From Anaerolineales bacterium (GTDB lineage Bacteria > Chloroflexota > Anaerolineae > Anaerolineales > DRMV01), in contig JALVOR010000018.1 of the NCBI GenBank assembly GCA_027026295.1, forward strand, positions 1-7,656: DNA of 7,656 nucleotides. Reading direction: 5' to 3'. The position numbers and the translations under genes are program-made. Positions 54 through 7,558 of this stretch are shown one piece after another (positions within the stretch are counted from its first letter, which is position 1; every line of letters begins with the position of its first letter). A model generated the notes under the pieces. It had not been told where the DNA came from. It ran no database searches and was given only the letters and a program-made list of their open reading frames with translations.

Positions 54-125
54 CTGACTATCCGACTACCTGACTATCCGACTATCTGACTATCTGACTA
101 TCTGACTATCTGACAACTCGACCAC
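54..125. repeat. 8-bp tandem array upstream of glgA
   Basis: Nine consecutive 8-bp units: mostly CTGACTAT, with variants CCGACTAC, CCGACTAT, CTGACAAC and TCGACCAC. The array ends 14 bp before the glgA start codon. Because 8 is not a multiple of 3, the TGA in CTGACTAT falls in all three forward frames (for example 55, 71, 87). The TAG read from CTA on the other strand falls in all three reverse frames (58, 66, 74). Related arrays lie at 4734-4821 and 7519-7558 in the same orientation. Confidence 0.93.
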
Positions 126-139
126 CCTTCGAGGCGCCC

Positions 140-1582
140 ATGAACATTCTCTTCCTGGCGGCTGAGGCTGCACCGTTTGCCAAAGTGGGCGGGCTGGGCG
201 ATGTGGCGGGTTCCCTGCCGTGGGCGCTGAAGCACGCCTTGCCCGCTGCCGACGTGCGGCTGGTGCTGCCCCTGCACCCCACGATTGACGCTGCCTATTG
301 GGGCCTGCGTCCGCTGACGGCGTTCACCATTGCTCATCGCAACGGCCCGATTGCCGCCGAAGTTTACGTCACCCAATACAGCGATCTGCCCGTTTATTTC
401 GTGACCGGCGTGCCGGTGCTGGCAGTGCCCGGTGTTTACAGCCCCGACCCCCACGCCGATGCGGTGAAATATGCCTTTTTCTCCCTCGCGGCGTTGGCTT
501 TGGCCCGCTATCTGGACTGGCAGCCCGACATTCTGCACGCCCACGACTGGCACACCGCCTTAGCCGTGCATGTGCTTGCTCATCGCCGCGGCAGCGATGC
601 CTTCTTTGCTCACACCCGCACCGTGCTGACCGTGCACAACCTGCCTTACATGGGTTCGCCTTCGCCCTTGCTGCTGGAAGCCTTTGGCATTCCTCCCGCG
701 GCGGAGGATAGTGGCCTGCCCGAATGGGCGCGCACCACGCCTTTGCCCATGGGGCTGGCTGCCGCCGATGCCATCACCACCGTTTCCCCCACCTACGCCC
801 GCGAAATTCAAACCCCCGAGTTCGGCCACGGGCTGGAAGGCTTCCTGCGCGCCCGCCGCGAGCGGTTGTTTGGCATCCTCAACGGGCTGGATACCGACCT
901 GTGGAATCCGGCCACCGACCGGGCGTTGGATGTGCGCTATACCCGCTCCACGGTGGCGCTGCGGGAACGCAACGCCGCGGCGCTGCGGCGCGAGGTGGAA
1001 CTGCCTCAGCCCGAGGGGCGGGTGCCGTTGGTGGGGCTGGTGAGCCGCCTGACCGTGCAAAAGGGTGTGGATGTGGCCGCCGAAGCCCTGCGGCTGCTGG
1101 CCGATTTCCCGTGGCAGGCGGTGCTGCTGGGCACGGGCGACCCCGAACTGGAAGACGCCATGCGCCGTCTGGAAGCCGAATTCCCCCAGCGGGTGCGGGC
1201 GGTGCTGCGTTACGACGATGGCCTGGCGCGGCGTATTTACGCCAGCGCCGACATGCTGCTGGTACCTTCCCGCTACGAACCCTGCGGGCTGGCGCAGATG
1301 ATTGCCATGCGCTACGGGGCGGTGCCTGTGGCGGCGGAGACCGGCGGCTTGGCCGACACTGTGCGCGATTTCGACCTTGCGCCGCGCCGCAGCACCGGCT
1401 TTTTGTTCCCCGAAGCCACCCCCAAGGCGCTGGCTTTTGCCCTGCGGCGTGCTTTCGCCCTCTTTGCCGACCGCCGCCGCTGGCAGGCGCTGCAGCAGCG
1501 CGGCATGGCGCAGGATTTTTCGTGGGAGCGCCCTGCCCGTGCTTACATTCGGCTGTATCGGCAGTTGCCGGATTTCGTATAG
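140..1582 (+). CDS. glgA: Glycogen synthase (ADP-glucose type, GT5)
   Basis: Transfers glucose from ADP-glucose to the non-reducing end of an alpha-1,4-glucan; cytoplasmic. The 480-aa product matches the family's usual length (about 477 in E. coli). It opens with the GT5 nucleotide-sugar motif KVGGLGDV (K15). HAHDWHT at 133-139 is the conserved active-site His region. NGLDTDLWNP is at 248-257. SRLTVQKG (302-309) holds the Arg and Lys that contact the ADP-glucose phosphates in this family. SRYEPCGL (377-384) carries the conserved Glu, E380. A TGGL.DTV segment follows. The start at 140 fits the family N-terminus and has GAGG at 131-134. Downstream glgC and malQ on the same strand support a glycogen role, but a 370-bp repeat-rich gap separates glgA from them, so cotranscription is uncertain. 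Nothing appears truncated or missing. Confidence 0.97.
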   Translation: MNILFLAAEAAPFAKVGGLGDVAGSLPWALKHALPAADVRLVLPLHPTIDAAYWGLRPLTAFTIAHRNGPIAAEVYVTQYSDLPVYFVTGVPVLAVPGVYSPDPHADAVKYAFFSLAALALARYLDWQPDILHAHDWHTALAVHVLAHRRGSDAFFAHTRTVLTVHNLPYMGSPSPLLLEAFGIPPAAEDSGLPEWARTTPLPMGLAAADAITTVSPTYAREIQTPEFGHGLEGFLRARRERLFGILNGLDTDLWNPATDRALDVRYTRSTVALRERNAAALRREVELPQPEGRVPLVGLVSRLTVQKGVDVAAEALRLLADFPWQAVLLGTGDPELEDAMRRLEAEFPQRVRAVLRYDDGLARRIYASADMLLVPSRYEPCGLAQMIAMRYGAVPVAAETGGLADTVRDFDLAPRRSTGFLFPEATPKALAFALRRAFALFADRRRWQALQQRGMAQDFSWERPARAYIRLYRQLPDFV

Positions 1583-1595
1583 CCAGTGTTTGTGT

Positions 1596-1625
1596 GTAGG
1601 GCAGGATGTCATCCCATCCTCCTGT
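1596..1625. repeat. Dispersed hairpin repeat, copy 2
   Basis: GTAGGGCAGGATG (1596-1608) is identical to 10-22. A 6-bp stem AGGATG (1603-1608) / CATCCT (1615-1620) closes a 6-nt loop. It begins 13 bp after the glgA stop codon, so it could stabilise or end the glgA message. It lacks a T-run, so intrinsic termination is not shown. Confidence 0.45.
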
Positions 1626-1668
1626 ATGGCGCCCAGTTGAGACTCTATCCGGAAAATATCATGGTAAT

Positions 1669-1766
1669 GTCATTGCGAGCCTCGAAGGGGCGAAGCAATC
1701 CCCTTTTCGGCCGTCAGGAGACTGCTTCGGCGGGCTTCGTCATTGCTCAGCCCGCCTCGCAGTGAC
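1669..1766. repeat. REP/MITE-like palindromic element
   Basis: The ends are GTCATTGCGAG (1669-1679) and CTCGCAGTGAC (1756-1766), an 11-bp inverted repeat with one mismatch. An inner pair, CGAAGCAATCCCC (1691-1703) and GGAGACTGCTTCG (1717-1729), is complementary at 11 of 13 positions. Imperfect outer arms at 1640-1656 and 1781-1796 may extend the structure to about 157 bp. Palindromes of this 'CATTGCGAG...CGAAGCAATC' type are familiar as multicopy noncoding repeats in several bacterial phyla. There is no coding capacity, so movement would need a transposase encoded elsewhere. I see no clear target-site duplication. Confidence 0.8.
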
Positions 1767-1844
1767 ACATCTATGAAGAGTTTTCGGAGGGACTCTGAAT
1801 GTTTTAGTGGGCAGAACGGATTCTCGTCCTTCACAATCCCGCCC

Positions 1845-1889
1845 AATCGGTGTAATCTGTGCTAATCTTTGTGGATGCGCTAATCCGTG
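1845..1889. repeat. AATC-periodic intergenic phrase
   Basis: AATC recurs at 1845, 1854, 1864 and 1882, each followed by a G/T-rich stretch such as GTGT or TGTG, giving a degenerate 9-10-bp period. Similar 'AATCTGTG' phrases are common as intergenic microrepeats in some metagenomic bacterial genomes. No function is evident. It lies 64-108 bp before glgC, so it probably falls in or near the 5' untranslated region. Confidence 0.5.
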
Positions 1890-1952
1890 GTTCCCCCTCG
1901 CCGAGGCTGAGCGTGTGCGCCCGGCCTTCCTTCCCTTTTCTGGAGGCGACCT

Positions 1953-3215
1953 ATGGATAAAACCCGCGTTGTCATTTTGGCCGGCGGCGAGGGTTCGCGC
2001 CTGGGCGTGCTGACTTCCAAGCGCACCAAGCCCGCTGTGCCCTTTGCTGGAAAGTACCGCATCATTGACTTCGTGCTTTCCAACTGCGTCAACTCCGGCC
2101 TGTTCGATGTCATGGTGGTGGCGCAATACCGCCCGCATTCCCTCATCGAGCACATCGGCTCCGGTGCCCCGTGGGACCTCAACCGGGATTGGACGGGCGG
2201 AGTGCGCATTTACACACCTTACCGCGCCCGCAACGCATCGGGTTGGTTCGTGGGCACGGCAGATGCGGTGCAGCAGAATTTTCGCTTTGTCAAGCATGCT
2301 GGCCCGCGCGATGTGCTTATCCTTTCCGGCGACCACATCTACAAGATGGATTACGAGCCGATGATTGCTTTCCACCATGACCATCAGGCCGACCTCACCA
2401 TGGCGGTGATTCGGGTGCCGATGGAAGAAGCCCCGCGCTTCGGCATTGTGGGGGTGGACGACGATCTGCGGGTCAATGCCTTCGTGGAAAAGCCCGCCGA
2501 CCCGCCTTCCAACCTTGCCAACATGGGCGTGTATCTCTTCGACCTGGATGTGCTCGACAAGGTGCTGCTGGAAGACCACAACAACCCCGATTCCAGCCAC
2601 GACTTCGGCAAAGATATTTTGCCCCGCATGGTGGCGGAGGGCTACCGCGTGTTTGCCTATCCCTACGCCGACTACTGGCGCGATGTCGGCACGGTGCAGT
2701 CTTACTGGGAAGCCCACATGGATTTGCTGGAAGTGCCGCCGCCGCTGAATTTGTATGACCGCCGCTGGGTGATCCACACCCGCACCGAGGAGCGCCCACC
2801 CATGCGCATTGCCGACGGCGCAGTGGTGCGCGACAGCATGATTTCCGATGGCTGCATCATCGAAAGCGGCGCGGTGGTGGAACGCAGCGTGCTTTCGCCG
2901 GGCGTGGTGGTGCGCGCCGGGGCGGTGGTGCGCGAATCGGTGGTGCTGACCGACACCATTGTGGGCGAGGAAGCCGTGCTGGAACACGCCATCCTTGACA
3001 AGCGCGTGCGGGTTGGCCGCCGTGCGCGGGTGGGCGCTTTGGCAACACCAGTTGACCTCACCATGGTGGGGAAGGGCAGCGAAATTCCCGAGGGCGCGGT
3101 GCTGGAAGCCGGCGTGCGGGTGGGCACCGACGTCATTGCCTCCGACTACCTCTCCGATTTGCACCTGCGCCGCGGGCAACTGCTGGAAACCCAGCGCCGC
3201 GCCCATCAAGTGTAA
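1953..3215 (+). CDS. glgC: Glucose-1-phosphate adenylyltransferase (ADP-glucose pyrophosphorylase)
   Basis: Makes ADP-glucose and PPi from glucose-1-phosphate and ATP, the committed step of bacterial glycogen synthesis. The product has 420 aa (E. coli 431). The N-terminal nucleotidyltransferase domain carries the pyrophosphorylase signature (GGEGSRL, residues 11-17, then KPAVPFAGKYRIIDF from K26). K23 aligns with the E. coli activator-binding Lys. GTADAVQQN, SGDHIYKMDY (125-134), FVEKP (177-181, with the glucose-1-phosphate-binding Lys at K180) and YWRDVGT (241-247) follow. From about residue 285 to the end, repeated hexapeptides predict the left-handed beta-helix used for tetramer contacts and allosteric control. 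Start at 1953 is supported by GGAGG at 1942-1946 with 6-nt spacing. malQ starts 34 bp downstream, so the two are probably cotranscribed. The effector cannot be read from the sequence. Confidence 0.97.
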   Translation: MDKTRVVILAGGEGSRLGVLTSKRTKPAVPFAGKYRIIDFVLSNCVNSGLFDVMVVAQYRPHSLIEHIGSGAPWDLNRDWTGGVRIYTPYRARNASGWFVGTADAVQQNFRFVKHAGPRDVLILSGDHIYKMDYEPMIAFHHDHQADLTMAVIRVPMEEAPRFGIVGVDDDLRVNAFVEKPADPPSNLANMGVYLFDLDVLDKVLLEDHNNPDSSHDFGKDILPRMVAEGYRVFAYPYADYWRDVGTVQSYWEAHMDLLEVPPPLNLYDRRWVIHTRTEERPPMRIADGAVVRDSMISDGCIIESGAVVERSVLSPGVVVRAGAVVRESVVLTDTIVGEEAVLEHAILDKRVRVGRRARVGALATPVDLTMVGKGSEIPEGAVLEAGVRVGTDVIASDYLSDLHLRRGQLLETQRRAHQV

Positions 3216-3236
3216 CTGCAACCTGCATCCTGCACC
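3216..3236. repeat. 7-bp microrepeat after glgC
   Basis: Three tandem 7-bp units, CTGCAAC, CTGCATC and CTGCACC, begin directly after the glgC TAA (3213-3215). They fill most of the 34-bp gap to malQ. This is a different unit from the 8-bp family in this window but sits in the same place, at a gene's 3' end. Confidence 0.7.
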
Positions 3237-3249
3237 CCTCGGGGTTTTT

Positions 3250-4749
3250 ATGCGCGCATCCGGTTTGTTACTTCACCCCACCAGCCTGCCCGGCCCCTAC
3301 GGCATCGGCGATTTGGGCCCCGAAGCCCGTAACTTCGCCGCAGCCCTGGCGCGGGCAGGCTGCACGTTCTGGCAGGCGCTTCCCCTGGGCCCCACCGGCT
3401 ACGGCGATTCGCCCTACCAGACCTTCTCGGCCTTCGCGGGCAACCCTTACCTCGTCAGCCCCGATGACCTGCTTGCCGAGGGCCTGCTCCGCCCCGATGA
3501 TTTGCGCGACATGCCCGCCTTTCCGCCCGGCAGGGTGGACTACGGCGCGCTCATCCCCTGGAAACGGGGGCTGTTGCGGCAGGCGTTTCGACGCTTCCGC
3601 GCGGGCGGCTTTCCCCAAATAGAGCGCGAGTTTACCGCCTTTCGGGAAGCCCACGCCCACTGGCTGCCCGATTTCGCTCTTTTCATGGCGCTCAAGGAAG
3701 CCCACGGCGGCGCGCCGTGGACGCAGTGGCTGCCGCCGCTGCGTTCCCACCAGCCCGATGCGCTGGCAACCGCCCGCCGCGATCTGGCCGAGGCGGTTGC
3801 CCAGGTGGAATTTGAGCAGTTCCTGTTCTTCCGCCAGTGGGGGGCGCTGCGCCGGGCTGCCGCAGGCCACGGCGTGCGCTTCATTGGCGACGTGCCCATT
3901 TTCGTGGCGCACGACAGCGCCGATGTTTGGGCGCACCCCGAACTGTTTTTGCTGGATGCCGATGGCAACCCCACCGTGGTGGCGGGTGTGCCGCCCGATT
4001 ATTTCTCGCCCACCGGCCAGCGGTGGGGCAACCCCCTTTACCGCTGGGAAGCCCACCGGCAACAGGGCTTCGCGTGGTGGCTGGCGCGGCTGCGGACGGT
4101 TTTGGGGCTGGTGGATGTGGTGCGTTTGGATCATTTTCGCGGCTTTGCGGCCTGTTGGGAAATTCCTGCCGAGGCGCCCACCGCCGAAACCGGCCAGTGG
4201 GAACCCGCCCCGGGTGTGGAACTCTTCGCCGCGGTACGCAATACGTTAGGCGACCCGCCGCTGATTGCGGAAGACCTGGGCGTGATTACCCCCGATGTGG
4301 AAGCCCTGCGCGACCAGTTTGGCTTCCCCGGCATGAAAGTTTTGGTGTTTGCCTTCGGCAGCGGCCCCGAAAACCCCTTCCTGCCCCACAATTACGCCCA
4401 CCCCAACTTCGTGGTTTACACCGCCACCCACGACAACGACACCACCGTGGGTTGGTGGCAGCGGGCAACCGAGGAAGAACGCGACTTCGCCCGCCGCTAT
4501 CTGGCTTCCGATGGCAGCGATATTGCGTGGGATTTGATGCGCGCCGCGTGGGCTTCGGTGGCGAAGTGGGTGTTAGCGCCGGTGCAGGATGTCTTACGGC
4601 TGGGCAACGAGGCGCGCATGAACTACCCCGGGCGCATGGGCGGCAACTGGGCGTGGCGCATGACCGCGCCGCTGCCCGCAGAGGCCATCGCCCGCCTGCG
4701 GGAATTCAACGCCATCTACGGGCGGCTGCCCGGCGACGCGACGACCTGA
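3250..4749 (+). CDS. malQ: 4-alpha-glucanotransferase (amylomaltase, GH77)
   Basis: Moves alpha-1,4-glucan segments between maltodextrins, releasing glucose; cytoplasmic. The 499-aa length and residue numbering nearly match Thermus aquaticus amylomaltase. The nucleophile D294 is in RLDHFRGF (292-299), the acid/base E341 in IAEDLG (339-344), and the third carboxylate D395 in THDND (393-397). The N-terminus, MRASGLLLHPTSLPGPYGIG, is typical of the family and fixes the start at 3250. The frame stays open far upstream into glgC, but that part is antiparallel-free shadow coding rather than MalQ. GGGG at 3241-3244 is a modest ribosome site. It is the last gene of a glgC-malQ unit. The final residues, GDATT, and the TGA are encoded by the first unit of the 16-bp repeat array, so the extreme C-terminus looks repeat-derived. 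Confidence 0.97.
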   Translation: MRASGLLLHPTSLPGPYGIGDLGPEARNFAAALARAGCTFWQALPLGPTGYGDSPYQTFSAFAGNPYLVSPDDLLAEGLLRPDDLRDMPAFPPGRVDYGALIPWKRGLLRQAFRRFRAGGFPQIEREFTAFREAHAHWLPDFALFMALKEAHGGAPWTQWLPPLRSHQPDALATARRDLAEAVAQVEFEQFLFFRQWGALRRAAAGHGVRFIGDVPIFVAHDSADVWAHPELFLLDADGNPTVVAGVPPDYFSPTGQRWGNPLYRWEAHRQQGFAWWLARLRTVLGLVDVVRLDHFRGFAACWEIPAEAPTAETGQWEPAPGVELFAAVRNTLGDPPLIAEDLGVITPDVEALRDQFGFPGMKVLVFAFGSGPENPFLPHNYAHPNFVVYTATHDNDTTVGWWQRATEEERDFARRYLASDGSDIAWDLMRAAWASVAKWVLAPVQDVLRLGNEARMNYPGRMGGNWAWRMTAPLPAEAIARLREFNAIYGRLPGDATT

Positions 4750-4821
4750 CGACGCGACTACCCGACGACGCGACGACCTGACGACGCGACTACCCGACGA
4801 CGCGACGACCTGACTACACGA
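4734..4821. repeat. 16-bp (2 x 8) tandem array between convergent genes
   Basis: Five 16-bp units alternate CGACGCGACGACCTGA (4734, 4766, 4798) and CGACGCGACTACCCGA (4750, 4782), followed by a half unit CTACACGA (4814-4821). In 8-bp phase the units read NNGACKAC, the same family as 54-125 and 7519-7558. The array starts inside malQ and contains its TGA (4747-4749). It ends inside the convergent SDR gene and contains its TAG, read from CTA at 4814-4816. The 64 bp between the two genes is entirely repeat. Confidence 0.95.
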
Positions 4822-5581
4822 GCAATTTTTGCACTTTCTCGTCGTAATAGGCCACGAACTCACCGCTCCACGCCCGCGGGGCGCGCAGTGCCACCGCAAC
4901 GAGGGGGCGGGCGACCACTTCGGGCGGCTGCAGGCGGCCTTCCCGCTGGTAGGCGAGGAATTTGGCGTGCAGGTCGGGGGGCATCACGCCCGCGCCCTGC
5001 TGCCGAATTTGGGCCTGCATGTCGGTATCCACAATGCCCGGTCGGAATGCCACGGTGGTGACGGCAGGCTCTTCGGCGGCCAGCACCGCCGCCAAATGGT
5101 TGAGGGCGGCTTTGGAAGCGCAATACGCGCCCCACGTGGGGTAGGCGTGGATGGCCGCGCCGCTGGAAACCAACACCGCGCGGCCTGCGCTTTTTCGCAG
5201 CAGGGGCAGGGAAGCCTGCAGCAGCGCCACCGCGCCAAGCAGGTTGACCCGCCAGTTGGTTTCCCACGCGGCGAGGTCGGCCTGGGCCACCGGGGCGATG
5301 GGCGGCAGCACGCCCGCGTTGTGGATGACGGCGTCGATGCGGCCAAAGGCATCGGCGGCGGCCTGCGCCATGCGGCGGGCGGTTTCGGGGGCGCCGATGT
5401 CGCCGGGGACGGTGAGGGCTTCGCCGCCGAGGGCGCGGCATTGGGCGGCCACGGCGGCGAGGCGGTCGGCGCTGCGGGCGTTGAGCACCAGGTTAGCGCC
5501 CTGCCGGGCGGCCTCTATGGCCGCCGCCGCGCCCAGCCCCCGCGACGCGCCGCTGAGCAGGATGACGGGGGTGGGGTTCAT
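4814..5581 (-). CDS. SDR-family NAD(P)-dependent oxidoreductase
   Basis: Classical short-chain dehydrogenase/reductase of 255 aa, the usual length; cytosolic, substrate unknown. SGASRGLG (10-17) is the Rossmann glycine motif, with S10 replacing the usual Thr. R14 and R36, and no Asp at the end of the second strand, favour NADP(H). D61 follows, then HNAG (87-90), N113, S140, Y153 and K157 (YCASK), which complete the Asn-Ser-Tyr-Lys tetrad. PG at 181-182 leads into VDTDMQAQIR, reminiscent of the benzil reductase / yeast YIR035C-like group. Start at 5581 is chosen over an in-frame ATG at 5638. It has AAGGAGG on the - strand (5588-5594 reversed), and the partial duplicate at 7045-7157 has an indel between the two ATGs that breaks the longer frame. 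The gene converges on malQ, and its stop lies in the repeat array. Confidence 0.93.
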   Translation of the reverse strand: MNPTPVILLSGASRGLGAAAAIEAARQGANLVLNARSADRLAAVAAQCRALGGEALTVPGDIGAPETARRMAQAAADAFGRIDAVIHNAGVLPPIAPVAQADLAAWETNWRVNLLGAVALLQASLPLLRKSAGRAVLVSSGAAIHAYPTWGAYCASKAALNHLAAVLAAEEPAVTTVAFRPGIVDTDMQAQIRQQGAGVMPPDLHAKFLAYQREGRLQPPEVVARPLVAVALRAPRAWSGEFVAYYDEKVQKLLV

Positions 5582-5652
5582 GAGGTTCCTCCTTGGGGTT
5601 TTGTATAGCCTGCAAAAAGCAGAAGAAGACTTGTTCATTGTTAGTGTAAACT
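5539..5652. repeat. ~114-bp direct repeat, copy 1 (intact SDR 5' end)
   Basis: This block covers SDR codons 1-15 and about 70 bp of its upstream region. It aligns with 7045-7157 in the same orientation. The first 24 bases are identical, the next 20 differ at four positions, and the noncoding remainder has scattered transitions and a few single-base gaps, roughly 80% overall by eye. Its right end is a 17-mer, CATTGTTAGTGTAAACT (5636-5652), that differs at one base from copy 2. Similarity stops at 5652, where the peptidase remnant begins. Confidence 0.88.
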
Positions 5653-5871
5653 ATATTTAGGACAGGTCATCAGCAACCATCAACGATTGGGCATTACATG
5701 GTTGTGGTGGGGTATGACGCAGAGCATGTCCAGGTGTTGGATCCGGCTGACCCTTTACACTCGCCGTCAAAACCCTGGTCATGGCAAGATTTTCTTTCCA
5801 AATGGGGCCAAGGGAACTTTGCGATTGAGCCTGGAAGTATGTGGGTAATATCAAAGGAGTCAGTACCATGA
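5650..5871 (+). pseudogene. C-terminal remnant of a C39-like cysteine peptidase
   Basis: An open frame closed upstream by TAA (5647-5649) reads through GHYMVVVGYD (from 5689) to a TGA at 5869-5871. The motif H-Y-x-V-V-V-G-Y-D, then VLDPADP and, near the end, WQDFLSKWGQGNFAI, is the pattern of the C-terminal half of Peptidase_C39_2-type papain-like domains. The His (codon 5692) and the Asp of the DP pair would be two members of the triad. The N-terminal part with the catalytic Cys is missing: similarity to the SDR upstream block ends only a few bases before this frame opens. The first internal ATG (5698) falls inside the core and has no good ribosome site. The stop overlaps the next gene's start as ATGA, so the lost gene was probably translationally coupled to it. 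Family call is by motif only. Confidence 0.7.
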
Positions 5872-6875
5872 AAACCGACAAACTTCTCCTTTGGGTTGGG
5901 CTATTCCTTATAGGAGTTATGTGTTGTGGTAGTGTTGCCTGGCGTGTGGGGAGCATTTTTCCCAAAAGAACGGTTCTCTCAATCCCAAGACGGGATATTG
6001 TCTATCAAACTTACGTGACTGGCTCATTGAAGGATCGCGACGGTAAGTTAGGGTTTGTAAATCAAGACGGTTCTCGTAAAGAAGTCATCACAGTGGCTTC
6101 GAAAGGCTCAGTAGTGCACTCACCAATGGTGGAAGGAGGAATGCTGCTTTTCCTTGTGGATGACTGGCCGGAAATTATACATGGAGGGGCCTTGTGGATT
6201 TACCACCAAGGAAAGGCGTTTTCATGCGATTTACGTTTAGCGTGGCGGCCTTCTCGCGTCGGTCACACGAAGCAGTACGTTGGACGGCATCTTTGGTTGG
6301 ACGATGGAGGGATTGGGTTATTTCGTCTTGATCAGAAAGGTTGCCACTTCGACCATGATCTTTTCTCGCCAGCGGAAATGAGGTCTTTGGGTATAACAGC
6401 AGTCTCTGGGTTTCATACAGAAGACAAGATTCTATTGGTAGGAGAGCACGCCTATGTGTATGAATTGCACACTCAGCAAATGGAATCATTGGCGTTGCCC
6501 CCGATGATACAATGTAGGCTTTCGCCTGATGACCGACAAATTGCGTGTGTGAAAGATGAGGGTGGTTCGGCATGGATCTATGTATTTTGGGCAGACGATT
6601 TTAGCTTGCGATTGAAGCGCCATTGGCCTTCAAAAGAACTTCCTTCCACCGGCATTCGAGACCTTTCGTGGTCTCCAGATGGGAAGGAGATTGTCTACCA
6701 TCGTTGTGTAGATGAACAAGAATGCGGGGTTGTGGGAGACCCTAAAAATCTTCAAACAATGGGCATTTACCGCTTGAATCTGGATACTGGTGAAGAGGAA
6801 CTGGTTACGACAGGTGGCATTATGCCCTATTGGATTGACTGGGGAGGCGTTTCCACCGAAACGCCATCACCCTGA
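5868..6875 (+). CDS. Membrane-anchored TolB/PD40-like beta-propeller protein
   Basis: A 335-aa protein of unknown function. Residues 6-25 form one hydrophobic segment after a short Lys-containing N-terminus, which suggests a signal anchor with the rest outside the membrane. C19/C20 lack a proper lipobox, so a lipoprotein is unlikely. The C-terminal half has propeller-blade signatures: LSPDDRQIACV (SPDD at 219-222), LSWSPDGKEIVY (SPDG at 269-272) and IYRLNLDTGEEELVTTGG (from 300), as in PD40/WD40-like repeats. The first half is more divergent, and I recognise no catalytic motif. Start at 5868 has AAAGGAG (5853-5859), and its ATG overlaps the peptidase remnant's TGA. Base composition is clearly lower in GC (about 45-50% by eye) than the glycogen genes, which suggests transfer. 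The last codons form a hairpin. A plausible role is binding or sensing at the cell surface, but that is inference. Confidence 0.82.
   Translation: MKTDKLLLWVGLFLIGVMCCGSVAWRVGSIFPKRTVLSIPRRDIVYQTYVTGSLKDRDGKLGFVNQDGSRKEVITVASKGSVVHSPMVEGGMLLFLVDDWPEIIHGGALWIYHQGKAFSCDLRLAWRPSRVGHTKQYVGRHLWLDDGGIGLFRLDQKGCHFDHDLFSPAEMRSLGITAVSGFHTEDKILLVGEHAYVYELHTQQMESLALPPMIQCRLSPDDRQIACVKDEGGSAWIYVFWADDFSLRLKRHWPSKELPSTGIRDLSWSPDGKEIVYHRCVDEQECGVVGDPKNLQTMGIYRLNLDTGEEELVTTGGIMPYWIDWGGVSTETPSP
6846..6865. terminator. Perfect 8-bp hairpin at the end of the propeller gene
   Basis: GGCGTTTC (6846-6853) pairs perfectly with GAAACGCC (6858-6865) around a CACC loop. It lies within the last ten codons of the propeller gene, ending 7 bp before the TGA at 6873. 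No U-tract follows, so intrinsic termination is not certain. It could be a message-stabilising hairpin or a small palindromic repeat that became part of the C-terminus. Confidence 0.4.
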
Positions 6876-6891
6876 AGCGCGCCACCGCTGA

Positions 6892-7023
6892 GGGCAAAGC
6901 AGTAGCAATCCCCTGCTGCACAACCCTCGCCTGCTCATCAATGGCGAAGTGCACCTGACCGCCGCCGCCTCAGGCCGCACGCTCCAGCCGGCCCCAGCCC
7001 CACCGCGTGACGGCAAGCCATAG
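6892..7023 (+). pseudogene. Possible decayed C-terminal coding fragment
   Basis: GC-rich sequence lying directly after the low-GC propeller gene. The frame 6892-7023 reads 43 residues, including NPLLHNPRLLINGEVHLT, to a TAG at 7021, and has no ATG and no ribosome site. It follows an in-frame TGA at 6889. Upstream, another frame gives protein-like text (ITLKRATAEGKAVA, about 6866-6909), so a frameshifted remnant of one gene is conceivable. I do not recognise the family. Its composition resembles the host genes rather than the insert. Confidence 0.3.
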
Positions 7024-7087
7024 CTACATTGCTACTTCTATTATCCCGCGACGCGCCGCTGAGCAGGAGGATGGGGTTTGGGTTCAT
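6938..7087 (-). pseudogene. Truncated SDR start (second copy)
   Basis: Reading leftward from ATG at 7087, the first 15 codons give MNPNPILLLSGASRD against MNPTPVILLSGASRG in the intact SDR gene (12 of 15 identical). Similarity ends inside the Rossmann glycine motif, at 7045. The frame then runs through unrelated, low-quality sequence to a TGA at 6938-6940, giving 49 residues with no NAG, YxxxK or other SDR element. It is therefore a 5' fragment of a paralogue or of a duplicated SDR gene and cannot be functional. The ribosome site is weakened relative to copy 1 (AAGAAGA instead of AAGGAGG). Confidence 0.8.
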
Positions 7088-7157
7088 GGGGTTTTCTTCT
7101 TGGGGCTTCGTATAGCCAGTAAAACGAAAGAAAGTTTGCCCATTGTTGGTGTAAACT
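7045..7157. repeat. ~114-bp direct repeat, copy 2
   Basis: The counterpart of 5539-5652, same orientation, about 1.5 kb away. It spans the truncated SDR codons and the whole upstream region up to CATTGTTGGTGTAAACT (7141-7157). Here the block leads into a small membrane-protein gene at 7190. Recombination between the two copies would remove the peptidase remnant, the propeller gene and the decayed fragment, leaving an intact SDR gene divergent from the 7190 gene. Confidence 0.88.
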
Positions 7158-7189
7158 CTTGGTAAGAAATTCTTCAGGAGACAAGCAAT

Positions 7190-7495
7190 ATGCCCGGCTT
7201 GTATTTTGTTTACGCTCTATGGTGGCTGTTTTTCTTTTGGCAGGTGTATAGGGCCGAAAAGATGTGCAAAAGAGAACCTCAAAGGGTGCCTTGGGCTTTG
7301 GATCCTCCAGCCTGGTTTGTTTACAAGATGCTCGTCGTAATTTTGGGGGAGAGCAGAGCAAAAGAATATGCTGAGGCAAGGAGGAATGTCATCCGCACCC
7401 GTTACTGCAGGTTTGCCAGAATGGCTGAATTTCTTGCGCTTGTTTTCGCTGTGTTGAGTTTACTTCAATGCCTGCTTTCTGTTTTGACGACCTGA
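7190..7495 (+). CDS. Small two-helix membrane protein, unknown function
   Basis: 101 aa. An aromatic-rich hydrophobic stretch spans residues 4-20 (LYFVYALWWLFFFWQVY), and a second one residues 81-99 near the C-terminus. Between them lies a basic, soluble stretch of about 60 residues rich in Arg and Lys, with Cys at 26. This suggests two membrane helices with both ends on the same side and a cytoplasmic middle. No family is recognised. AGGAG (7176-7180) lies 9 nt before the ATG, a good ribosome site, which supports a real gene. GC content is lower than in the glycogen genes. The last codons, ACG ACC TGA, match the end of malQ and belong to an 8-bp repeat unit. It is divergent from the truncated SDR and converges on the right-edge gene. 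Confidence 0.65.
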   Translation: MPGLYFVYALWWLFFFWQVYRAEKMCKREPQRVPWALDPPAWFVYKMLVVILGESRAKEYAEARRNVIRTRYCRFARMAEFLALVFAVLSLLQCLLSVLTT

Positions 7496-7558
7496 GCCGA
7501 ATGTGACACCGCAGTTGCCCAACTACTCGACTACCTGGCTGCTCGACTACCTGATTTC
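7484..7558. repeat. 8-bp repeat units at convergent gene ends
   Basis: TTGACGAC followed by CTGA (7484-7495) forms the end of the 101-aa gene. After a 23-bp gap come CCAACTAC, TCGACTAC, CTGGCTGC, TCGACTAC and the degenerate CTGATTTC (7519-7558). The units match the NYGACKAC family of the other two arrays and have the same orientation. The TGA at 7493-7495 ends the + strand gene. CTA at 7547-7549 gives the TAG of the - strand gene at the right edge. Confidence 0.85.

Follow-up and report, generated by a model that had tools for sequence, protein, structure and literature searches.

Why do the stop codons of several neighbouring genes fall inside tandem repeats of a single 8-bp unit? The question was raised by a contig of an Anaerolineales bacterium (GenBank JALVOR010000018.1, C18 in our numbering; assembly GCA_027026295.1), the whole of which, 7,656 nt, forms the window analysed here; its genome, G000, comprises 2.15 Mb in 388 contigs and is 82.5% complete. 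A first-pass annotation of the window had described three octamer arrays and a lone unit pair and had proposed that such arrays act as gene-end punctuation. We find that the arrays follow a polar rule: the 3′ end of an array abuts the start of a codirectional gene or the stop of an opposing gene. The reading that we favour, with no better than even confidence and judging from sequence, is of one 8-bp family in untranslated gaps, the C-rich strand of which likely forms a structure-free leader for initiation independent of a Shine–Dalgarno (SD) sequence, with in-array stops as a by-product.

An octamer family and its polarity

Arrays were defined as at least three units with at most one mismatch, including at least two exact units. 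The sample comprised 84 stretches from four genomes (30 from G000, 18 from G023, 19 from G004 and 17 from G048; genomes and loci are cited by our G and L numbers), 83 of which were fetched for exact units and one (L216) for glgA–malQ, and it yielded 96 arrays. G000 had sequence matches on 30 contigs, of which 28 carried arrays by this definition, 33 arrays in total. The genome scan proposed with the annotation returned 59 exact three-unit matches in G000 and none in a backward control, establishing that the repeat is real. Comparison stretches, chosen by number or position away from array stretches, held no array in 86 kb of G000 and one in 393 kb of G004, figures that mark unlisted arrays as rare and are not a density estimate. 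Only two arrays lay inside called genes (L183, and L055, where the start was miscalled), and the remainder were in gaps. The gap counts below omit these two and nine further arrays without a called neighbour on one side, leaving 85; genes were called with a codon-usage program of our own making, which overlooked some genes and set some starts wrongly (L033, L034).

In 234 inner units from the four genomes, taken where both neighbours were exact and the unit itself was unconstrained, the consensus was YGACYAYC. This revises the NYGACKAC first reported, position 5 running T, then C, then G once no match is required of the unit. The core GAC.A is near-invariant (G2 in 226 units, A3 in 232, C4 in 232 and A6 in 230); the variable positions are 1 (C in 126, T in 101), 5 (T in 177, C in 41, G in 15), 7 (C in 166, T in 60) and 8 (C in 195). 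TRF (Tandem Repeats Finder) detected higher-order periods of 16 and 32 bp in the window arrays, and unit mismatches showed no clear gradient along arrays of the kind that growth from one end would leave.

Reading each array along YGACYAYC, we defined its 3′ end, and termed arrays C-form when the C-rich strand lies in the sense of the genes and G-form when it is opposite. In 69 of 85 arrays this end lay closer to a gene than the 5′ end did (P = 5e-9; 22 of 29 in G000 alone, P = 0.008), and C-form arrays outnumbered G-form arrays by 48 to 17 in tandem gaps (P = 1.5e-4). Expectations were taken from a slide null in which each array is placed uniformly in its own gap, free to overlap the 3′ end of a gene by up to 24 nt (a limit of our choosing) but not a 5′ end. 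Under this null (n = 85), a start codon was expected within 17 nt of 14.4 arrays and was found for 45, a stronger association than that with stops. Among C-form arrays in tandem gaps, 38 of 48 had an ATG within 17 nt (null 12.8), and the upstream stop was avoided, being contained in 4 of 48 (null 16.9). G-form arrays in tandem gaps contained the stop of the gene at which they point in 13 of 17 cases (null 5.9) and lay near a start in 2 of 17. All seven convergent arrays held a stop (null 4.0), and 7 of 13 divergent arrays lay near the start toward which they point (null 1.7). The offset of the opposing stop from the array end, available in 26 cases, was −4 in 13 and −12 in 6, which places the stop at the CTA of the final unit or of the one before it. 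Six inverted pairs less than 120 bp apart (L041, L047, L057, L209, L213, L231) all had their 3′ ends facing outward and none inward, and in five of the six both arrays touched or almost touched their gene edge. Of the 65 arrays that lie before a codirectional gene, 4 had a TATAAT box (5 or 6 matches) within 22 nt of the array 5′ end; at L055, outside those 65, a TATAAT was seen by eye immediately before the array.

A neighbour's stop codon lay inside 25 of the 96 arrays. The sequence of the unit makes such overlaps nearly automatic: units that begin with T supply TGA, units containing GACTA supply TAG on the reverse strand (as CTA), and each of these comes round in all frames over 24 bp. Among the 85 arrays with both neighbours called, the slide null predicted 26.8 such cases where 24 were found. 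Gene-end punctuation therefore fails as a rule, although stops do occur in arrays and the claim holds for one orientation only; the stops are likely a by-product and not the purpose. Gap types (65 tandem, 13 divergent, 7 convergent) roughly followed the available gap DNA (69/20/11% of gap bases in G004 stretches), so that convergent gaps were not enriched. The overlap of stops by TAACTGA repeats has likewise been explained as automatic (MacGregor, PMC4679880; for this and the other papers cited, our statements refer to excerpts).

The family is patchily distributed. A genome search found matches in 19 of 81 genomes, the own genome included: five of six members of the genus, none of 12 other genomes of the family, and then other families of the order. 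Class-wide, 45 of 396 genomes matched, again including the own. Genomes of named species gave at least 114 matching stretches, at least 49 of them Chloroflexota by title, a phylum to which we take names such as Thermoflexus and Oscillochloris to belong. Many of the other matches in named species (for example, Streptomyces and Sorangium) are GACGAC runs in open reading frames (ORFs) and are probably unrelated to the repeat; among those listed, matches outside long ORFs came from some Desulfobacterales, Lewinella and Aeromonas. Long, near-perfect arrays of TGACTACY or TGACTATC, 8–20 units outside long ORFs, were seen in the unrelated bacteria Robertkochia, Neolewinella, Alicyclobacillus and Aeromonas (L088, L128, L129, L068). 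Named loci, some of which duplicate fetched loci (L087/L229, L118/L223, L122/L181, L132/L187), were left out of all counts. Eight stretches of viral contigs carried four units, and a plasmid search with window positions 4700–4850 gave no match.

Shine–Dalgarno motifs and structure in array leaders

An ATG was considered array-led when the array 3′ end lay between 3 nt past and 60 nt before it; other ATGs were drawn from array stretches and comparison stretches alike. SD motifs preceded 13 of 56 array-led ATGs and 422 of 678 others (P = 1.9e-8), a deficit also present within G004 (5/15 versus 254/377, P = 0.01) and G023 (0/14 versus 42/93, P = 0.0007). Array leaders were also predicted to be open: from −45 to +20 the folding energy was −3.2 kcal/mol for 48 array-led leaders and −12.4 kcal/mol for 682 others, and the predicted unpaired probability at the start was 0.73 and 0.53, respectively. 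C-form arrays fold at −0.02 kcal/nt, compared with −0.088 for shuffled sequence. No stable hairpin was predicted for either orientation (G-form −0.167 kcal/nt; on average weaker than shuffled), and inverted pairs, which lay outside this folding, could pair. Directly after arrays stand plausible N-termini, such as MFVHLHVHSEYS (DnaE), MPRDYYEVLGVSR (DnaJ-like) and MKGIILAGGKGTRL (sugar-nucleotidyltransferase-like). Local absence of structure has been reported to suffice for SD-independent initiation (Scharff and others, PMC3121790).

RNA of the C-rich strand would thus serve as a leader on which ribosomes start without an SD sequence. Array leaders may be translated well, which would be the reason that they are kept, while units would multiply by slippage and the repeat would turn over in untranslated DNA. 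Translation would set the edges of arrays, with orientation as the filter. Being almost without fold and perhaps independent of an SD, the C-form could reach the AUG; the G-form could not, and would stay behind the SD and be found at stop codons. Where units begin with T or contain GACTA, stops come round in all frames of either strand over 24 bp, so that a gene running into an array ends there.

Several observations weigh against this reading. The SD deficit was not significant in G000 alone (7/16 versus 112/169, P = 0.10) or in G048 alone (1/11 versus 14/39, P = 0.14), and it is partly geometric, because an array 3–7 nt from the ATG leaves no space for the motif. An SD is retained behind some arrays (glgA, L045, L048), and dnaE appears SD-poor in every species read; arrays may therefore settle in leaders that already lack an SD rather than replace SDs, the sole case of SD loss being L042, where the G004 leader is 17 nt long with AGGAG and the G000 leader is around 73 nt long, with an array and without an SD. 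Stronger folding is predicted for leaders built of another octamer, AACNARGY-like (−6.0 to −9.3 kcal/mol), and for two leaders of an rluB-like gene (−12.1 and −9.7 kcal/mol), so lack of structure is not common to all octamer leaders. Finally, inner units share one core whatever the setting of the array (118 units from C-form, 31 from G-form, 24 from divergent and 20 from convergent arrays). A role of the sense RNA alone does not predict this agreement between G-form and C-form units, which suggests that, below any function as a leader, the repeat is copied or bound at the level of DNA.

The same gaps in sister species and competing explanations

Arrays were common to G000 and G004 at L034/L205, L046/L208, L048/L265, L050/L215, L057/L209 and L055/L214, partially shared at L041/L271, and degenerate with period 8 at L058/L213 (lag 8, P = 0.0002); an array at the mfd end was also common to both genomes (L210). 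Many gaps therefore hold an array in both species, with units that have turned over. Present in G000 and not in G004 were the arrays at L042, L045 (in G000 between a TATCAT box and the retained SD), L049, the malQ end and glgA. The glgA array had no counterpart in five sister genomes, the malQ end had no array in four sisters, and the L050 site carried an array in G000, G003 and G004 and none in G002. The G004 stretches compared here include some that were fetched for arrays and some that were not; among the latter, inspection by eye found 2 of 5 sites shared (L048 and, partly, L041; not L042, L045 or L049), a low-side figure, array stretches having been avoided.

Sister genes also differed in the unit of their leaders. 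In all five dnaE leaders read, a period-8 run stood against the ATG (lag-8 P below 0.001 each), drawn from at least three unit families: YGACYAYC in G000 and G003, AACNARGY-like in G001 and G004, and CCCTCAAT in G002; in G005 the matched sequence lacked a start and was left out. An ABC-transporter gene had YGACYAYC in G000 and G003, AACNARGY-like units in G001 and CTATCTTC in G002 (P of 0.0004 or less each). Its G004 leader, missed by the start pattern of our script, showed two to three AACCAGGY units by eye, and its pyrimidine-rich G005 leader gave no lag-8 signal (P = 0.38; best lag 7). The rluB-like gene carried YGACYAYC-like units in G000, G003, G004 and G005 (lag 8, P = 0.0002 to 0.008), and no such units were seen by eye in its G002 leader. 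These three genes were chosen for their G000 arrays and are examples, not a sample. Among five glgA leaders scored, that of G000 alone was periodic, and all five had an SD motif. Genome-wide, YGACKAY triples numbered 59 in G000, 34 in G004, 2 in G001, 10 in G005, 25 in G003 and none in G002, and matches to a second family, AACNARGYAACNARGYAAC, numbered 107 in G002, 18 in G000, 17 in G004, 15 in G001, 27 in G005 and 6 in G003. It is conceivable, though rather unlikely, that what is conserved in a leader is its 8-nt period and not its sequence, dnaE and ABC leaders being octamer-periodic and G-poor while their units are swapped among unrelated families (YGACYAYC, AACNARGY, CCCTCAAT, CTATCTTC), and that some component of translation initiation reads the 8-nt step. 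The swapping of units at the same genes can be likened to satellite turnover in eukaryotes.

Further short-period families were seen beside these. Arrays of a period-7 unit, TGCATCY, occur on both strands in G004 gaps and leaders (L254, L255, L256, L263, L264, L270), and in G023 and G048 (for example, L184, L188, L218, L230) a degenerate, G-rich period-7 repeat, GGACGRY, lies between the upstream stop and the octamer array, such gaps running stop, heptamers, octamers, ATG. In G004 comparison stretches, 15 of 151 leaders had at least 50% identity at lag 7 or 8; in G000 comparison contigs, period 7–8 accounted for 1 of 9 noncoding TRF arrays.

The main rival to the leader reading, and a somewhat less probable one, is neutral or selfish gap filling of no benefit to the host: repeats of 7–8 bp would arise in any untranslated DNA and lengthen by slippage, their ends being fixed only by purifying selection that protects promoters, SDs and the edges of coding sequence. 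It accords with the several period 7–8 families that share gaps (such periods account for 15 of the 30 TRF arrays in noncoding DNA of the G004 comparison stretches and for 1 of the 61 in coding DNA), with the higher-order periods, which point to duplication of unit blocks, with in-array stops at chance level overall, and with the gains and losses of arrays between sisters. It does not readily account for a unit core and pyrimidine positions that are equal in four genomes and in every context, the C-form bias, start-codon abutment at three times the slide null, or the retention of period-8 leaders by the same genes in most sisters. That the units are instead sites for a global DNA- or RNA-binding regulator reading the GAC.A core once per 8 nt is unlikely: the near-invariant core in both orientations, dispersal at many genes and inverted pairs would suit such sites, Geobacter tandem octanucleotide pairs are annotated as such (PMC2700814) and S1, Csp or Csr-like readers have been proposed for TAACTGA (PMC4679880), but arrays vary in length and sister species carry different unit families at one and the same gene. 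Least tenable, and very unlikely, are the punctuation first supposed and transcription terminators, for which the G-form arrays at stops and the array-written ends of MalQ, SDR and Mfd speak, but which the stop counts under sliding (on which we dropped punctuation as a general rule), the stronger association with starts, the lack of excess in convergent gaps and the nearly structureless C-form RNA contradict. Further conceivable accounts would be a Rho-site or telomere-like origin of the arrays, or pairing of the unit with 16S rRNA, where GGTAGTC at a primer site would be the candidate match.

The window and related repeats

The window encodes glgA, glgC, malQ, an SDR gene, two ORFs without a Pfam match and, at its right edge, the end of an mfd-like gene that matches the C-terminus of the Mfd/TRCF protein of G004 (Table 1).

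Table 1. Arrays, array-borne stop codons and a further short-period array in the window
Feature	Position	Strand	Description
Array 1	54..125	+	Nine units; C-form leader of glgA
Period-7 array CTGCAAC/CTGCATC	3216..3234	+	Directly after glgC stop, before malQ; other unit family, similar placement
Array 2	4734..4821	+	About eleven units, 32-bp higher-order period; between convergent malQ and SDR
malQ stop TGA	4747..4749	+	Within array 2 unit; terminal part of tail GDATT array-encoded
SDR stop TAG	4814..4816	-	CTA of last exact unit of array 2
Array 3	7519..7558	+	Degenerate; 3′ end of mfd-like gene
TAG stop of edge-truncated mfd-like gene	7547..7549	-	Within array 3 unit

Two-unit matches with at most one mismatch occurred 18 times in the window, against a shuffle mean of 0.07. 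TRF and shuffles bore out arrays 1 and 2 (TRF scores of 105 and up to 165). Array 3, the last of those annotated, is short, with 1, 0, 2 and 0 mismatches in its units, but G004 has an array at the same gene end. The lone unit pair reported at 7484–7495 was at chance level: its single exact unit is one of five scattered over the window beyond the arrays, all five on the + strand and none on the − strand. Of four stops said to lie inside units, those of malQ, SDR and the right-edge gene stand; that of a 101-aa ORF (stop at 7493) was not counted, because the ORF has no Pfam match, is uncalled by the codon model and ends in the chance-level pair, although the same model also missed a 335-aa ORF at 5868–6875. 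The glgA ATG lies at 140, 14 nt beyond the last unit of array 1, and retains GAGG.

Comparison of C-termini with orthologues, as the annotation had suggested, revealed changes at array-borne stops. MalQ acquires an array-written tail, sister MalQ proteins ending differently after YGR; the SDR protein ends 2–6 residues before three close orthologues; and Mfd of G004 terminates in array-written SDSRIVR. malQ and the close SDR gene lie apart in G003 and G004, the two sisters in which both were found, and array 2 may mark a recombination junction, or a contig of this metagenome-assembled genome misjoined at the repeat. At seven G000 sites with both flanking orthologues in fetched G004 stretches, the orthologues were neighbours in G004 too, a result favoured by the requirement for a joint stretch.

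Other repeated DNA was observed in the window, which had no Rfam match at gathering score. The SDR start region with its upstream flank (5539–5652) recurs at 7045–7157 (94 of 112 aligned bases identical), and the two copies bracket atypical, A+T-richer DNA holding the two ORFs without a Pfam match, an arrangement that may reflect an insertion accompanied by duplication of its flank. Two copies of a GTAGGGCAGGATG-type element (21 of 25 identical) lie at 4–28, near the start of array 1, and at 1590–1614, after glgA. A hairpin-like dispersed element (CATTGCGAGCC...GCGAAGCAATCCCC...TCGCAGTGACA) lies at 1665–1770 in the glgA–glgC gap and again upstream of the L048 array, at about 2300–2420.

Cyanobacterial short tandemly repeated repetitive (STRR) sequences are heptamer tandem units of other sequences, dispersed between genes. 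The closest precedent is the TAACTGA heptamer, a direct repeat of marine Beggiatoaceae, Cyanobacteria and Bacteroidetes whose arrays mostly point to a start codon, end a few nucleotides before it and overlap the expected SD, with an SD in around 10% of repeat-bearing regions; a minority overlap the upstream stop, the distribution is patchy and a role in translation is a proposal only (MacGregor 2015, PMC4679880). Shared with it, as far as those excerpts go, are the many dispersed and mostly intergenic arrays, forward-oriented and ending just before starts, and the rarity of SDs; the octamer differs in its unit, its period of 8 rather than 7 and its bacterial hosts, and adds the opposing-gene stop rule of the G-form, outward inverted pairs, the comparison of sister gaps and the switching of unit families. 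We regard it as akin to the TAACTGA repeats and not as a member of that family. The paired tandem octanucleotide sites of Geobacter metallireducens (GTTGCTYN) are likewise dispersed tandem octamers with opposite-strand pairs between genes, but they are described as having four fixed units and another consensus, as predicted regulator sites and in some cases as near insertion sequences, with no placement relative to start codons in the excerpts (PMC2700814), whereas here unit number varies and six close inverted pairs account for 12 of 96 arrays. Prokaryotic satellites are short-repeat families spread through one genome, including a 14-nt repeat of Chloroflexus aurantiacus, from the same phylum as many named carriers; the excerpts cited contain no link to start codons or SD loss (PMC6749651). 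A text search returned no paper, within the literature collection that it covered, with any of six 15–16-letter unit strings.

If the leader reading holds, these arrays would offer a testable natural case of starting translation without a Shine–Dalgarno sequence, in repeatedly gained, oriented leaders such as that of dnaE, a gene that lies behind another octamer in sister species. The arrays further show how protein C-termini (those of MalQ, SDR and Mfd) are rewritten by a repeat that offers stops in many frames.

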